Assembly: GCA_013820875.1 (NCBI GenBank)
Contig: JACDHS010000041.1
Location: 1-37,796, forward strand
Direction: 5' to 3'
DNA: 37,796 nucleotides
From: Verrucomicrobiota bacterium
GTDB taxonomy: Bacteria > Verrucomicrobiota > Verrucomicrobiia > Limisphaerales > JACDHS01
The position numbers were made by a program, and so were the translations under genes. Positions 14,992 to 37,796 of the stretch are shown piece after piece (within the stretch, counting starts at the first letter, position 1; the number at the start of each line of letters is the position of its first letter). The notes under the pieces are model-generated. The model saw only the letters and a program-made list of their open reading frames with translations, was not told the DNA's origin and searched no databases.

Positions 14992-15380
14992 TGTGGGTGG
15001 ATACTGCCAGCCTTCCATTTCACGCGCGAGTTGCGATTACAGTTAACCCACGGATGAGGGTGAGCCTCACATCAATTCACCGGATGTGTCCGGAATTGAT
15101 ACAGACCAGGCAAGTAATTTACGGAGAACTGCCGATAGCCAGAGAAAAGGGGTTGGAGAAAAACCCTGCGGACTGATTGGAATCGCTGGTTCTCCGCCAG
15201 TTTAGAATGACGCGACCGTGTCGTGAGTCCAAAATGGGTTGGGCTGGAATCCATCAGTGATGGATCTGTGAACCACACCCTGTGAAAGAAATGCGCAAGC
15301 ATCTTGGAACCGTTCGTCAGGCTTCCAATTAAGCTGCGGCTGTCTGCTTTTACCGCAGCAGGCTCAACGGGAATACCCTC
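14992..15380. other. Intergenic region upstream of the amidase gene; weak hairpin only
   Basis: No gene is seen. A 7-bp inverted repeat (GCTGCGG at 15333-15339, CCGCAGC at 15353-15359) lies just beyond the pgsA stop on the minus strand and might serve as a weak terminator, but it lacks a T-tract. Confidence 0.3.
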
Positions 15381-15974
15381 TCAAACATCATCTAGGTATA
15401 TGGCGCTATTGCGCCAGAGATACATGGCTCCGGAGAAAGCGGTGAGGCTGACGGCGAGCCATTTGGCGAAGGCAGTAAACCAGATGACCCATGGTCCCCA
15501 GCCGAAGAGATTCAAGCCAAAAATGTTTTCTCCGATAATGCCCCATTCGCCGTAACTGGCTGCGACAAGGATGGCAATGATGGCAACAATCTGGGAAATG
15601 GTTTTATGCTTTCCATAGCGTTCTGCCGCGAGCACAACGTTTTTAGAGGCCGCCAGTAATCGAAGGCCAGTGATCGCCAATTCACGCGCGACAATGATGA
15701 CGACCATCCAGGCAGGCATCCAGCCCCGTTCGACAAAGGCGATGAAAGCCGAACAGATCAGAATCTTGTCAGCCAACGGATCCATCAGGATGCCGAAGTT
15801 GGTGATCAAGTTTCGTTTGCGCGCAATTTCTCCGTCGAAATAATCGGTGAGGCTCGCAAGGGAGAAGAGGACGAGCGCAATCGTTTCATGATAAGGCCCA
15901 TTTGAAAACAGCACCGCCAGGAACGCCCCTGTTAAAAACAGGCGCGACACGGTGAGTTTGTTCGGCAGATTCAT
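15381..15974 (-). CDS. pgsA: CDP-diacylglycerol--glycerol-3-phosphate 3-phosphatidyltransferase
   Basis: The protein has 197 residues, the usual length for PgsA. It transfers the phosphatidyl group from CDP-diacylglycerol to glycerol-3-phosphate in the inner membrane, the committed step to phosphatidylglycerol. The N-terminal MNLPNKLTVSRL is typical. The CDP-alcohol phosphotransferase signature D-x2-D-G-x2-A-R-x8-G-x3-D-x3-D is complete within TDYFDGEIARKRNLITNFGI plus LMDPLAD. Several membrane helices follow, including WMVVIIVARELAITGLR and the C-terminal AFAKWLAVSLTAFSGAMYLW. It lies 80 bp downstream of the DsrE-like gene on the same strand and may share its transcript. Confidence 0.93.
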   Translation of the reverse strand: MNLPNKLTVSRLFLTGAFLAVLFSNGPYHETIALVLFSLASLTDYFDGEIARKRNLITNFGILMDPLADKILICSAFIAFVERGWMPAWMVVIIVARELAITGLRLLAASKNVVLAAERYGKHKTISQIVAIIAILVAASYGEWGIIGENIFGLNLFGWGPWVIWFTAFAKWLAVSLTAFSGAMYLWRNSAIYLDDV

Positions 15975-16054
15975 TCAGCGTCGAAAAAAGTAACAAGTTT
16001 GGGCTCAACTTGCCGTGAGGGATAAGCCTGATTTTAACCGGCAGTGTCAATCGC

Positions 16055-16372
16055 TTAGTTGAAACTCACGAAACGATCGGTCCCGGCAATGATGTCATTA
16101 ACGATGGTTAACCCGGCAAAAACGGCCTTGTCATTGAGCGGATAATGGTGGCGATGCGCCCCGTAGGCACAGCCATATAATTTGAGACCGCGCGACTTGA
16201 GATCCTGCATGGCAGGCGTTTCCACTCCTTTGACCGCTTCATCAATGCAGTAAAGGTAAACATCCGCGCCTTCATTGATCGCGGCCTCCGCCAGCTTCAC
16301 TCCATGAGTGAAGTTAGGTTGCTCCGGGCGGCACGAAATCAAAATGCCCAGTTTTTTTCCGCGTAACGACAT
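16055..16372 (-). CDS. DsrE/DsrF-like family protein
   Basis: The protein has 105 residues from ATG 16372 (MSLRGKKLGIL); a TTG 36 bases upstream is a less likely start. The fold signature of DsrE/TusD-like proteins is visible: a first strand KLGILISCRP, a helix with HGVKLAEAAINEGADVYLY, and the conserved cysteine in GLKLYGCAYGAHRHH, where sulfur-relay members carry persulfide. It ends with AGLTIVNDIIAGTDRFVSF. A role in sulfur transfer is possible from the cysteine, but many DsrE-like proteins have no proven function. It is upstream of pgsA on the same strand. Confidence 0.75.
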   Translation of the reverse strand: MSLRGKKLGILISCRPEQPNFTHGVKLAEAAINEGADVYLYCIDEAVKGVETPAMQDLKSRGLKLYGCAYGAHRHHYPLNDKAVFAGLTIVNDIIAGTDRFVSFN

Positions 16373-16664: not shown

Positions 16665-17449
16665 AACCAGCATAACCTTGAAAAGAATCGCCGAACATCT
16701 GCACATGGGAAGCTGGACGCATGTCTCCAATCGCCTATATGAATGCGTAGCACACCGATGATTCAAATCAGAACCAATCGGCTTGGTGATAAATAGTGAG
16801 GACTGGGTCTATGCAGTTGCAAACAGGGGCGTGACATTAAACACGGCCAGTGGGTCACCCCTTACCGGCATGCTCGCCCTTGGTATCCGGGCCTGTAGCG
16901 ACAGGAAAAATGCGCTGAGCGCCTATGAAGAGTGCTAACGATCCACCGGGAATCGCCAACCCGATCAGGATTGAAAGGAGGCCATTGCCGAATACGATCG
17001 AATCAATCTGGGAAATGATCTCACTTTCGAGCGTCTGGAAGAGCATTCCGACGCTACCCTTGATAACCGCTGCTTCTGGATTTTCTTCGATCGTCGCCGC
17101 TAACTTTGGGTCATCGGTGGCACCGAATTACGGGTTGACCGAGGCGCGCTATCGAACGTCAAGCGAATGGTTTTTTATCTCTGGATTTTTTTTGACTAAC
17201 GAACGTCAAGGCTGACCCACACCGAGCAAGCCTTGAGCACGTTGTATTTCAGCTTCCTAGATGGGAATGCCCCGTTACCTGGGTTAAGCGAAGATCCTCG
17301 TTCCTGAACCGCTACCGGAAAGTCCAATCGGGAAGAGTTCTTCTCCGGGGTGAACGATGGCAACCGTCAGGGTGAGACCGTAAATGTCCCCTTCCCTTTG
17401 GGAACGCTCGCGGGGGTTTCCACCTCCTGGATTTACCGGGGCGGACGGT
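16665..17449. other. Gene-poor region preceding the palindrome array
   Basis: The only hint of coding is a minus-strand frame at 16855-17046 (63 aa from an ATG) with one membrane helix (NGLLSILIGLAIPGGSLALFI); the frame also reads sensibly for 25 codons upstream of that ATG but then meets a stop, so it looks like a fragment of a membrane protein gene. The 11-bp word CGAACGTCAAG occurs twice (near 17154 and 17201). Nothing else was recognised. Confidence 0.4.
16855..17046 (-). pseudogene. Possible fragment of a single-pass membrane protein gene
   Basis: 63 residues from ATG 17046: MLFQTLESEIISQIDSIVFG, a hydrophobic helix NGLLSILIGLAIPGGSLALF, then a short polar tail ending EHAGKG. In-frame sequence upstream (ATDDPKLAATIEENPEAAVI) also looks protein-like but has no start codon before a TAA. 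It could be a truncated gene or a small protein using an unusual start. Confidence 0.3.
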
Positions 17450-17940
17450 CGATGTAAGAGTTACATCGACGGCCAAACCGAAACAGGGCATCGGAAGTAA
17501 CTTTTCCCGAGTGGGCTGTAAGAAAACGGACGTCGTTGTAAGACTTACATCGGTGCCCAAACACAGAAAAGGGGTCGTTGTAAGAGTTACAGAGACCGCC
17601 AAAAACGTTTTTGACAGCCCATGTAAGTGTTACATCGATGGTCTAAAACAATTTTGGGCATCGATGTAACTCTTCCCGAGTGGGCTAAACGAATTTTGAC
17701 GTCGTTGTAAGACTTCCCGAGGCGACAAAAACATTTTAGACGGCTCGGGAAGACTTACATGGGTGGTCAAAATTAGTTTTGGCCTCGTTGTAAGACTTAC
17801 ATGGGTGGCCAAAACCGGTTTAGACGCCGTTGTAAGACTTCCCGAGACGCCAAAAACAGTTTAGACACCTCGGTAAGACTTACATGGGTGGCCAAAAACA
17901 TTTTAGGCGCCTCCGTAAGTCTTACAACGACGTCTAAACT
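17450..17940. repeat. Array of 12 degenerate ~42-bp units, each with a TGTAAG-N-CTTACA-type palindrome
   Basis: Unit cores begin at 17453, 17496, 17537, 17579, 17622, 17665, 17706, 17747, 17789, 17831, 17872 and 17914, a period of 41-43 bp. Each core is a palindrome with a one-to-three-base centre. Half-sites come in two types: A (TGTAAG / CTTACA) and B (CGGGAAG / CTTCCCG). Most units are A-A; those at 17665, 17706 and 17831 are A-B and that at 17747 is B-A. The spacers hold a second, weaker palindrome of the form GGCCAAAA...TTTTGGCC (clearest at 17764-17783). Translated frames are broken by the irregular period, so it is not coding. It is unlike CRISPR, because repeats vary and spacers are themselves repeated. 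Confidence 0.85.
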
Positions 17941-18296
17941 CCAGCAATTCCCACATTTTCTCCCGTTTTGACCCTTGGAACGCGCTTTTCCAGAGCTTTT
18001 TAGCTACGTTAAGGATCAAAGCGCTAGTTAACTCGGGACTGGAAAGTGGCCAGTTCCTCAACGCTGTCATCAACCTGCGTCAGTTGGCCCGGTTGCTCGA
18101 TAGCAGCTTCAGCCTCGGCAGTGCATGAAAGTTTATGCAGCCCCAACCATCCGACAAACCGCCTCCATTTTTCCCTGACGTGCGATTCGGCAATCGCACC
18201 TCGGTTTTTGGGGAATTTTCGTTTGCACGGGTTGCGCCTTATGAACCATAGTTCGCAGGCAATTAGTTCGCTCTTTTCCCTCAGACGGTTGCATTT
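17941..18296. other. Leader region of the DUF4912 gene, no separate gene supported
   Basis: Open frames on both strands overlap the start of the DUF4912 gene and have no recognisable domain. The region presumably holds the promoter of the 18297-21952 cluster; no clear -35/-10 pair was seen. Confidence 0.35.
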
Positions 18297-19721
18297 ATGA
18301 AATCCGATAAAAAAATTTCCGCGGCGAAGAAGGTGGCGAAAGGGAAGAAAGCTCTTTCCGCCAAGGCACCCTCCACAACAAAGAAAGCGCCCGAAGTCAA
18401 AAGCGCAGCCAAAGCAGGTAAAAAACAATCCACCGCCCTGCGCAAAAAGCCCAGCAAGACCGCTAAAGCAGTCGAACCTGTTGCAAAAGCACCGCGGAAA
18501 GCCGTTGCAAAAGTAAAGGCAGTCACGAGGAAAGCGGAGCCTCCCGCAACCACCGCTCGCAAAATCCGGACGCCGGCCAGGAAAAAAAAGTTGGTGATCC
18601 CGTCCATTTTGCTGGAAGGCGACAAACCGATTGCACCTCAAGCCAGTGGCCCTGGACAAAAATTTTCACTGGGCCCCACACCACCGGCTGAGCATTTCGA
18701 AGAAGCCCAGGATTTACCTGAATCTTACGGAACGAAACGCCTGTTGATTGCCGCGCGCGATCCGCAATGGATTTACGCGCATTGGGATTTCACCACGGAA
18801 CAACTGCGAGAATACAATTCGAAATCCGCGGATGGACATCTTGTGGTGCGGGTGTTCAAAGACGCAATCGGCGGAAAACCGGTTGCCGAAGTTCACGTCC
18901 ATCGCGAGTCGCGTAATTGGTTTATTCACGTCGGCCAGGGTGGAACAAAGTATCAGGCTGAACTTGGGTATAATGACAAGGCCGGCAAATGGAATCGCAT
19001 TTCCGTTTCTGGCGCGACTCTCACGCCGCCCGATCAGATGTCCGAAGATACCTCCGTCCGCTTTGCCACCATCCCGGTGGATGTGCCGTTCGAAGAATTG
19101 CTTCGCATCGTCAAAGCGGCGGTGACTGAAAACGTGCCGCTCGCCGAAGCGATTGAGCAGTTGCGCGCGGCTGGATTCAAAAAAATTCCCGCAGTAGGAC
19201 AATGGGCATCAACGTCATGGACGCCCGCACAGGAACGCGCGCTGGCTTCCATCATCACGATGGACACCGTCCGGCGTTTATGGATTGGTTCGCTGGAGAT
19301 CACTGAATTGGTGCGTCGGCAATTGGTCCAGGGTGTTTCTTCCATGGGCGCGGCGCAGTTCTCACTGCCGAGTTCCATTTCCCTCGCCAGCCTGTCGAGT
19401 CCCTTTGGTGGAGTGGAGCGGCGCAAGGGCTTTTGGTTCAACGTCAATGCGGAGCTGATCATTTATGGAGCGACCGAACCAGATGCGGCGGTGACGATCG
19501 GCGACCGGCAAATCAAGCTGCGACCGGATGGAACATTCAGTTACCGGTTCATTTTGCCAGATGGAGATTATCATTTGCCTGCGCAGGCTACTTCGGTGGA
19601 CGGTGATGATACGCGCTCGGCGGGTTTGAAGTTCACACGCAAGACCGATTACCGGGGCGATGTCGGTGAGCATCCGCAAGATCCGAACATGCGCGCGCCC
19701 CGGGTGGAGAACATTAGTTAA
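18297..19721 (+). CDS. DUF4912 domain protein with histone-like Lys/Ala-rich N-terminal tail
   Basis: The protein has 474 residues. The first ~105 are a lysine/alanine/proline-rich, probably disordered tail (KKISAAKKVAKGKKALSAKA, further KAPRKAVAKVKAV), like histone H1-type bacterial tails. The DUF4912 domain follows at ~140-260: LPESYGTKRLLIAARDPQWI, YAHWDFT, and WFIHVGQGGTKYQAELGY. A later beta-rich part (FWFNVNAELIIYGATEPDAA ... IKLRPDGTFSYRFILPDG) looks like a carbohydrate-binding or Ig-like fold. DUF4912 genes often lie near GH57 glucan enzymes, and here one is three genes downstream, so a role in glucan handling or binding is plausible but inferred. No strong ribosome-binding site. Confidence 0.85.
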   Translation: MKSDKKISAAKKVAKGKKALSAKAPSTTKKAPEVKSAAKAGKKQSTALRKKPSKTAKAVEPVAKAPRKAVAKVKAVTRKAEPPATTARKIRTPARKKKLVIPSILLEGDKPIAPQASGPGQKFSLGPTPPAEHFEEAQDLPESYGTKRLLIAARDPQWIYAHWDFTTEQLREYNSKSADGHLVVRVFKDAIGGKPVAEVHVHRESRNWFIHVGQGGTKYQAELGYNDKAGKWNRISVSGATLTPPDQMSEDTSVRFATIPVDVPFEELLRIVKAAVTENVPLAEAIEQLRAAGFKKIPAVGQWASTSWTPAQERALASIITMDTVRRLWIGSLEITELVRRQLVQGVSSMGAAQFSLPSSISLASLSSPFGGVERRKGFWFNVNAELIIYGATEPDAAVTIGDRQIKLRPDGTFSYRFILPDGDYHLPAQATSVDGDDTRSAGLKFTRKTDYRGDVGEHPQDPNMRAPRVENIS

Positions 19722-35119: not shown

Positions 35120-35649
35120 ACTTGTGGGTTTTTGACTCCTTTTCCTCGGAGGATAATGGCTTATGTGAATTTCCCTGCGAAGTCAATATCAGTGAAAACT
35201 TACCTATTCCATGGTGCGTGATTTTAAGCGGGTGAGATGGCGTAAAAACGGAGCGCAGCTGTGCTCGAAGAGTCAGCCGCAGCGGGTACGGCAATAATTG
35301 CGGCGTTCAGATTTTGCAGGCCCACTTGATATCTCACGTGCTGCGGCTGATGCTGCGCACAAATCAGAACAATAGAAAGAACGAACCGCGTCCCGGTTAC
35401 GCCGCGCTCCGATTCCATCTCACCCGGAAAAAATCGCACCCCGCTGATCCCGTCTATGCGTTCTTTGCATTACAATGTCTTCAAATCTTCTTTTCCTGAG
35501 AAGATTTTCAGGAGCACCACCTGCTCCTTTTCACCTCTTCTCCTTTTCTCCCCTTCACCGGGGACAGGCAAGATGCGCTGTCCTACTTTATTTGCGGCTC
35601 CGCCCGCGCTATGCAACTAATTCGAACTGCATAAAGGCAATCCGAGACG
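35120..35649. other. Intergenic leader region upstream of the beta-strand repeat gene, containing a dispersed repeat
   Basis: No gene is supported. On the minus strand, TTGACT (35186-35181) lies about 60 bp upstream of the 35119 start and may be part of its promoter, though no matching -10 was clear. The dispersed repeat at 35341-35412 lies in this stretch. Confidence 0.4.
35341..35412 (-). repeat. Dispersed intergenic repeat, copy 2
   Basis: In the minus orientation this resembles 22011-22090, sharing GGAGCGCGGCG, CGGTTCGTT and TTTCTAT in the same order and spacing. It is located upstream of the beta-strand repeat gene. Confidence 0.6.
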
Positions 35650-35813
35650 TATTTCACGGAAGCGGAAGTCTCGAACTGTCGTCATTTTTATATTTCACGG
35701 AAGCGGAAGTCTTCAATCGTCGTCATTTTAATATTTCACGGAAGCGAAAGTCTCGAATCGTCGTCATTTTTGTATTTCACGGAAGCGGAAGTCTCGAATC
35801 GTCGTCATTTTTT
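35650..35813 (+). repeat. Four direct tandem repeats of 41 bp
   Basis: Units start at 35650, 35691, 35732 and 35773, each beginning TATTTCACGGAAGCG and containing CGTCGTCATTTT. Differences between units are few (for example CGGAAGTC against CGAAAGTC). A partial fifth unit (GATTTCCCGG) follows at about 35815. The 41-bp period is not a multiple of three and frames are disrupted, so it is non-coding. Confidence 0.9.
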
Positions 35814-36213
35814 TGATTTCCCGGAGTTTCAGAAGACATTTCCCCTCGAATCTTCCAAAAACGCGTTAGGAAAGAGGTTTTATCCGCAGATTACGCAGGT
35901 TTCCACAGATTTCAAAAAGCTAACGGCTGGTTTAACGTCAGAGACAGGTAATCAAAGGGGCGACTGCCAGGCTTGGAAGATAATCGGCCAATTTGAAGAG
36001 TTGTTTCAGCACACTGCCGAAACTCCCGTTCAATCCGCGCCAGGTGAGGTGTAATCCAATGAAAACGGTGGCAGCTAAACTGCGGTTCAGGTTAACAGCT
36101 TTGTCCCGACCCTTCGATCGTGGTTCCTGAGCGAGAAAGGCTTTGCTTGTGTGGCGCTCCGTCAGCGACCCTGCTTACCTGGTTGAATTCTTCAACTAAA
36201 CGAAAGTAATAAT
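35814..36213. other. Intergenic region with no gene recognised
   Basis: It contains the phrase CCGCAGATTACGCAGG (about 35884-35899), a type of word often repeated between genes in Verrucomicrobia and Planctomycetes. Its purpose is unknown. No promoter for the 36214 gene was clear. Confidence 0.35.
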
Positions 36214-36458: not shown

Positions 36459-36475
36459 TAAAACCGGAGGTCGAA

Positions 36476-36635
36476 AACCGCAGTTTAACCGCTAATCTTC
36501 GCTAATTACCGCTAGAGGGGGATTGCGAAGAAGGCCGCTTGAAAAACCAACCACCTGTTGGGTAAAGTCTTTGTTTCGCATATCCACTTCTCCATTAGCG
36601 GCTATTAGCGAAGATTAGCGGTTAAACTGCCGTTT
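36476..36635. repeat. Palindromic MITE-like element with ~35-bp inverted arms
   Basis: The left arm (36480-36514) and right arm (36596-36630) are inverted copies matching at about 33 of 35 positions, enclosing ~80 bp of unique core. The arms contain ~10-bp direct words around GCTAATCTTC / GCTAATTACC. A left half of the same element is at 12012-12118. There is no coding sequence inside, so if mobile it would depend on a transposase encoded elsewhere. Confidence 0.75.
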
Positions 36636-36699
36636 TTAGGTTTAAGATCTGAAACAGCGGTTTTTAGTTTTTGCCCACCAGCAGGCGAGGCAGGGCAAC

Positions 36700-37647: not shown

Positions 37648-37672
37648 ACGATTTCTGATTTTTGTTTTGTTA

Positions 37673-37796
37673 GAGCCTGTCTGAAAAGTCGGTTAAAGTG
37701 AGGAATCAAGCGAGGCGGCGGATTTGGATTCGTATCATGGCGATATAGATCCAAGCTTGGGCGCTGGTTGCTGTTGTTTCGTAATCGCGCACGAGG
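37673..37796 (-). mobile_element. Right-edge-truncated IS5-type insertion sequence
   Basis: GAGCCTGTCTGAAAAG at 37673-37688 looks like the terminal inverted repeat of IS5-group elements, and the transposase C-terminus is directly inside it. The rest of the element lies beyond the window, so its length and the other end cannot be seen. Confidence 0.75.
37706..37796 (-). CDS. IS5 family transposase, C-terminal part
   Basis: The last 29 codons before the TGA at 37708-37706 read LVRDYETTATSAQAWIYIAM then IRIQIRRLA. This matches the conserved C-terminus of IS5-family (DDE_Tnp_1) transposases, typically RLVRDYE...SAEAFIYIAMIRIMLRRLA. The catalytic DDE residues lie outside the window. No frameshift is seen in the visible part. 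Confidence 0.8.
   Translation of the reverse strand, partial: LVRDYETTATSAQAWIYIAMIRIQIRRLA

Follow-up and report, generated by a model that had tools for sequence, protein, structure and literature searches.

A Dyad-Unit Array in a Verrucomicrobiota Genome Belongs to a Genome-Wide Class of Intergenic Arrays with a 41–43-bp Period

The array described here is a member of a class of tandem arrays that extends through the genome; its members share a 41–43-bp period and are otherwise mostly unrelated in sequence. It is probably the satellite core of a dispersed BOX-like element, non-coding and non-autonomous, in which a left module, a run of n dyad units and a right module follow one another and the unit is kept close to four helical turns in length. 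The window, meaning the whole stretch of DNA analyzed (37,796 nucleotides), is the entire contig C40 of a 5.7-Mb genome in 239 contigs.

Structure of the Array

The array spans positions 17444–17941 (no strand assigned) and consists of twelve ~42-bp units. Each unit joins two ~21-bp half-units in inverted orientation, and half-units of the consensus STTNCNNNGNNGNCNAAA therefore alternate in orientation throughout. The dyad centers are at 17459, 17501 (degenerate), 17543, 17585, 17628, 17671, 17712, 17753, 17795, 17837, 17878 and 17920. They are spaced 41–43 bp apart with a mean of 41.9, a regularity far beyond chance. The best centers in the array region have a palindromy of 0.70–0.80 over 20-bp arms, whereas the window averages 0.25 and reaches 0.70 at its 99.99th percentile. 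The pattern of invariant positions, TTTNGNCNNCNNNGNAASNSTTNCNNNGNNGNCNAAA, has six matches in the window, all inside the array, and none in 100 dinucleotide shuffles. No open reading frame of 100 or more residues lies over the array. The centers, spacing, palindromy and shuffles together bear out the earlier note, which had placed a twelve-unit array with a 41–43-bp period here; it was also correct in describing a 1.6-kb gene-poor setting upstream of the gene at 18297–19721. Within the array, three units (125 bp) form a higher-order repeat present in two copies (17680–17926, no strand assigned), which was detected as a period of 125 at 17694–17926 and as repeat family D3.

The half-sites had been described as two interchangeable types, here called A and B. 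Tallied over the 65 distinct units of all copies, the combinations are A-A in 44, A-B in 12, B-A in 9 and B-B in none. The mixed combinations do occur, but the half-sites grade into one another (TGTAAG, CGGGAAG, CGGTAAG, CCGTAAG and TGTAAC), the two types being the ends of the series. The lack of B-B at the dyad center is not significant on distinct units (P = 0.14), and an avoidance of this combination was rejected. Similarly, the second palindrome reported in the spacers is present, but it is no separate feature; it results automatically because a dyad unit is repeated in tandem.

The Dispersed Element Surrounding the Array

The array region matches 14 loci in the host genome at ~77–95% identity. 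Local and flank alignment of these copies outlines a whole dispersed element, family 1, at 17256–18020 on the forward strand, made of a left module, the array and a right module. The element is ~780 bp long with a ragged right end, which extends up to ~25 bp further in other copies. In the flank alignments, the left module (17256–17440, forward strand) is common to the copies in C238, C224 and C92 and partly to that in C145; its first ~66 bp also adjoin a different array family in C137. The right module (17942–18020, forward strand) is joined to the array end in 10 copies, again by flank alignment. Besides C40 itself, the loci are in C238, both ends of C191, C145, C140, C92, C20, C214, C135, C109, C70, C129 and C224. 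Several contigs terminate within family-1 copies. Copy numbers are lower bounds because the assembly breaks inside arrays, and repeat arrays account for the many breaks of this assembly at contig ends. At the right end of the window (37670–37790), a 121-bp stretch is identical, in reverse-strand orientation, to the opening 121 bp of C191. That contig begins beside a family-1 copy, and the identity is likely an assembly link broken by the repeat.

The family-1 copies are intergenic. Their neighbors are ordinary genes that differ by locus, and the orientation is not constant; a recA-like protein, identified by eye, adjoins the copy in C20. The earlier note had held that ordinary scattered repeats without palindrome conservation would speak against its reading. 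The units are indeed scattered genome-wide, yet the dyad motif is conserved. Among 58 relatives, none has the family-1 element. Of 388 genomes in the phylum, only that of the host carries the motif pattern, at 54 sites, and each of the 2 matches in 84,980 species genomes is a single palindrome with no 42-bp array. A plasmid, phage or viral origin was rejected, no such matches to the element having been found. We identified no target-site duplication, terminal inverted repeat or mobilizing enzyme for family 1; its ends are ragged, and the flank alignments, which compare occupied sites, contain no inverted repeat. Conserved end modules flanking a tandem core, dispersed in intergenic DNA, make this a BOX-like architecture. 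Other repeats are found in the vicinity of arrays. The family-1 copies in C238 and C140 are bordered by a further dispersed repeat, a small hairpin with the sequence CGTGGAATAA..AATTCCACGGCTACAAGGCGGGGCGTCGCT. In the window at 36470–36640, the stretch AACCGCTAATCTTCGCTAAT ... ATTAGCGAAGATTAGCGGTT resembles an inverted-repeat element of the MITE type, and close copies of it flank other arrays.

Exchange and Constraint among the Half-Units

The units keep positional homology between family-1 copies in the alignment, and therefore whole elements were copied together with their arrays. Aligned copies differ by swapped whole half-units in an otherwise near-identical context, an example being CTT-CCCGAGGCGAC versus GTTACATGGGGGGCC at ~17713–17727. 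The copy in C145 is a mosaic, the left part following one subfamily and the right part the other (runs test p = 0.006). Recombination or gene conversion between half-sites had been proposed from the sequence, and the replacement of whole half-units and the C145 mosaic support such exchange.

Seven positions of the half-unit (2, 3, 5, 9 and 16–18) are nearly fixed across units and copies, and others are near saturation. Position by position, the diversity between copies follows the diversity within arrays (Spearman 0.92). Judged from these alignments, the fixed positions beside free ones look like a constrained site array, though homogenization by exchange contributes. The earlier note had also proposed two binding specificities mixed in one array; the conserved positions are compatible with an array of sites for a putative ligand. 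Overall, the array is no more conserved than its flanks, so that any function is putative.

A Class of Arrays with One Period

A census of tandem repeats over 1.22 Mb of the host genome, about a fifth of it, found 16 arrays with a period of 41, 20 with 42, 9 with 43 and one with 40, counting at least 2.5 copies and periods of at least 12. The same census yielded four multiples (82, 123, 125 and 126) and only four other periods (12, 14, 16 and 21). At a lower threshold over the same 1.22 Mb, 62 of the 68 arrays with a period of at least 25 bp fall at 40–44 bp or multiples of it. The arrays of the host and of a sister genus (G001) sort into ~30 unit clusters, mostly without detectable mutual similarity, and 9 of the 30 are more palindromic than shuffled units (p < 0.05). 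Unit similarity across families is slightly over that of shuffles (mean z = 4.9), driven by few pairs, and most pairs are shuffle-like.

Individual families illustrate the range. The family in C137 has a 41-bp dyad unit, AAAATCGGCAATTTTAGTCCTCCAAACTATTTTGGAGCGTT, that is unrelated to family 1 and matches ~30 places, many of them 94–100% identical. The window contains a second array at 35650–35825 (no strand assigned), with 4.3 units of 41 bp of unrelated sequence and no significant palindromy; related arrays occur in C71, C118, C147 and C66. It is preceded at 35560–35614 by a module, GGGGACAGGCAAGATGCGCTGTCCTACTTTATTTGCGG..., with more than 30 other matches in the genome, which is a separate small dispersed repeat. 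Two further families, c and d, have a common array-adjacent end module of ~65–100 bp, and their units have no above-chance similarity (score 21; null mean 19.5, 95th percentile 25). Shared ends, here and at the C137 junction, suggest that the ends outlast, or recombine with, fast-changing cores.

Beyond the host, the family was sampled by one other member, the sister genus, in which a 0.2-Mb census of that one genus found its own 41-bp arrays and multiples with different sequences. One of these arrays is dispersed within the G001 genome and absent from the genome of the window. In 0.385 Mb of four order-mates, no such arrays were found. One period over ~30 mostly dissimilar families, extending to the sister genus and not to the sampled order-mates, implies a length rule that holds regardless of sequence. 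Searches of a literature collection found no published description of a 41–43-bp length rule or of these arrays.

Two general properties were considered for the class and rejected. DNA curvature is one: relative to shuffled units, the arrays lean toward stronger curvature (13 of 48 have z < −1.64 and none has z > 1.64), but the window array does not (z = −0.65), the families are not independent, and A-tracts alone could produce the excess. The other is coding for 14-residue repeats. Where arrays are open to translation, they are so in several frames or on both strands, and most such frames close near the array, from which we take the arrays to be non-coding. Stops are present in families 1 and 2.

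Alternative Explanations

The array is predicted to fold strongly on either strand (z about −12 and −17 relative to dinucleotide shuffles), as would be expected of a structured RNA, that is, an array transcribed to act as a string of hairpins or as one long hairpin. However, when half-units were permuted among positions, the fold energy was the same in seven copies (z −1.5 to +2.3). Facing halves match no better than distant halves (0.62 and 0.64 versus 0.63), and local compensatory pairing of facing halves is thus not seen. The RNAalifold covariation term is unfavorable (+2.56), with double changes in 5 of 119 pairs, and there are no Rfam matches. The permutation and the absent covariation led us to reject an evolved RNA fold, and we regard a structured RNA of any kind as quite unlikely. 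Less credible still is a local regulatory operator array serving the gene that begins downstream at 18297. In its favor are the conserved dyad motif and a position ~0.35 kb upstream of that gene, but the same element adjoins unrelated genes in every orientation.

Two other alternatives address the period itself. In the REP literature, arrays have been proposed to arise from circular intermediates (PMC3733652). The corresponding product of an HUH/RAYT (Y1 transposase) system would be ~42-nt single-stranded circles with one palindrome; rolling-circle copying and insertion would then yield tandem arrays whose period is set by the circle size. Such a model would explain all of the sequence-independent period, and the genome has 7 Y1_Tnp (PF01797) matches, one of the genes being surrounded by BIME-like repeats. 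Even so, we consider this origin unlikely: the family-1 array lacks the GTAG tag (0 GTAG, 0 CTAC), its units have both AA and TT palindromes over the whole 42 bp, unlike REP hairpins, the arrays show no clear clustering at Y1_Tnp genes, and palindromy is significant in only 9 of the 30 families. We give more credit, while not favoring it, to a neutral satellite of common descent, in which all families go back to one ancestral 42-bp array and have kept its period by inheritance alone while the sequence saturated. Some families are related, as the top pair scores exceed those of shuffles, and end modules are common to unrelated cores. Against this, most unit pairs score as shuffles do, so that under common descent indels would have stayed almost absent while substitutions saturated, and the family-1 motif sets fixed positions next to saturated ones. 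Shared descent with saturation may account for part of the period sharing, as far as the sequence comparisons reach.

Relationship to Known Repeat Systems

The closest architectural parallel is the BOX element of Streptococcus pneumoniae, organized as boxA-(boxB)n-boxC (PMC3049150). Both are composite intergenic elements whose end modules enclose a tandem core of variable size, occur in many copies, cluster with other repeats and are presumed to be non-autonomous. The likeness drawn here is one of architecture, and none in sequence would be expected; the core here is made of 41–43-bp dyad units in which some positions are constrained, a single period is common to dozens of families, and no terminal inverted repeat or partner IS was found. 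The REP/BIME/REPIN mosaics and their RAYTs (PMC3733652, PMC2817692) are likewise dispersed intergenic palindromes in alternating orientation and mosaic combinations, and the host genome likewise has Y1 transposases. The array differs from them in lacking the GTAG tag and in having up to twelve contiguous units at a fixed period, and the host genome has BIME-like repeats separate from it. In C145, at 15279–16259, a RAYT-like Y1_Tnp gene is flanked by BIME-like palindromes, GGACTGAAAGTCCGCCATGTGAAAGCCCGGG, of a repeat different from family 1; similar palindromes are found near the copies in C92, C224 and C191. The common period across array families is a new feature relative to both BOX and REP/BIME.

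The array shares with CRISPR the regular spacing of palindromic repeats. As the earlier note had recognized, the resemblance ends there: the whole 42-bp unit is repeated, the dispersed copies have homologous units, there are no unique spacers, and no cas genes were seen near the array. Intergenic minisatellites and VNTR loci such as MIRU are likewise dispersed between genes, with tandem units some tens of bp long. Bacterial minisatellites normally have many different periods. The arrays here differ in sharing one period across unrelated sequences and in having dyad symmetry and end modules.

Proposed Behavior of the Element and Meaning of the Period

The reading that we prefer, a BOX-like element with a satellite core, suggests the following course. 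The element would spread by means of a putative trans-acting enzyme. Its core would grow as one unit or a block of three is duplicated, and gene conversion or unequal exchange would reshuffle it, such that the sequence turns over fast while the unit length stays near 42 bp. The presumed cause is that neighboring dyad sites must sit about four helical turns apart for their putative binder or copier. Over a long run of units, families with a period of exactly 41 or 43 bp would lose their helical phase, and strict long-range phasing is not found; therefore, the constraint, if real, acts between neighbors.

More tentatively, a family-wide and sequence-independent mechanism, either a copying enzyme or a DNA-binding or packaging constraint, could be building or maintaining the 41–43-bp intergenic arrays in dozens of unrelated families. 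The length rule thereby poses a testable question, namely whether it reflects a binding or packaging protein, a copying enzyme or shared descent.
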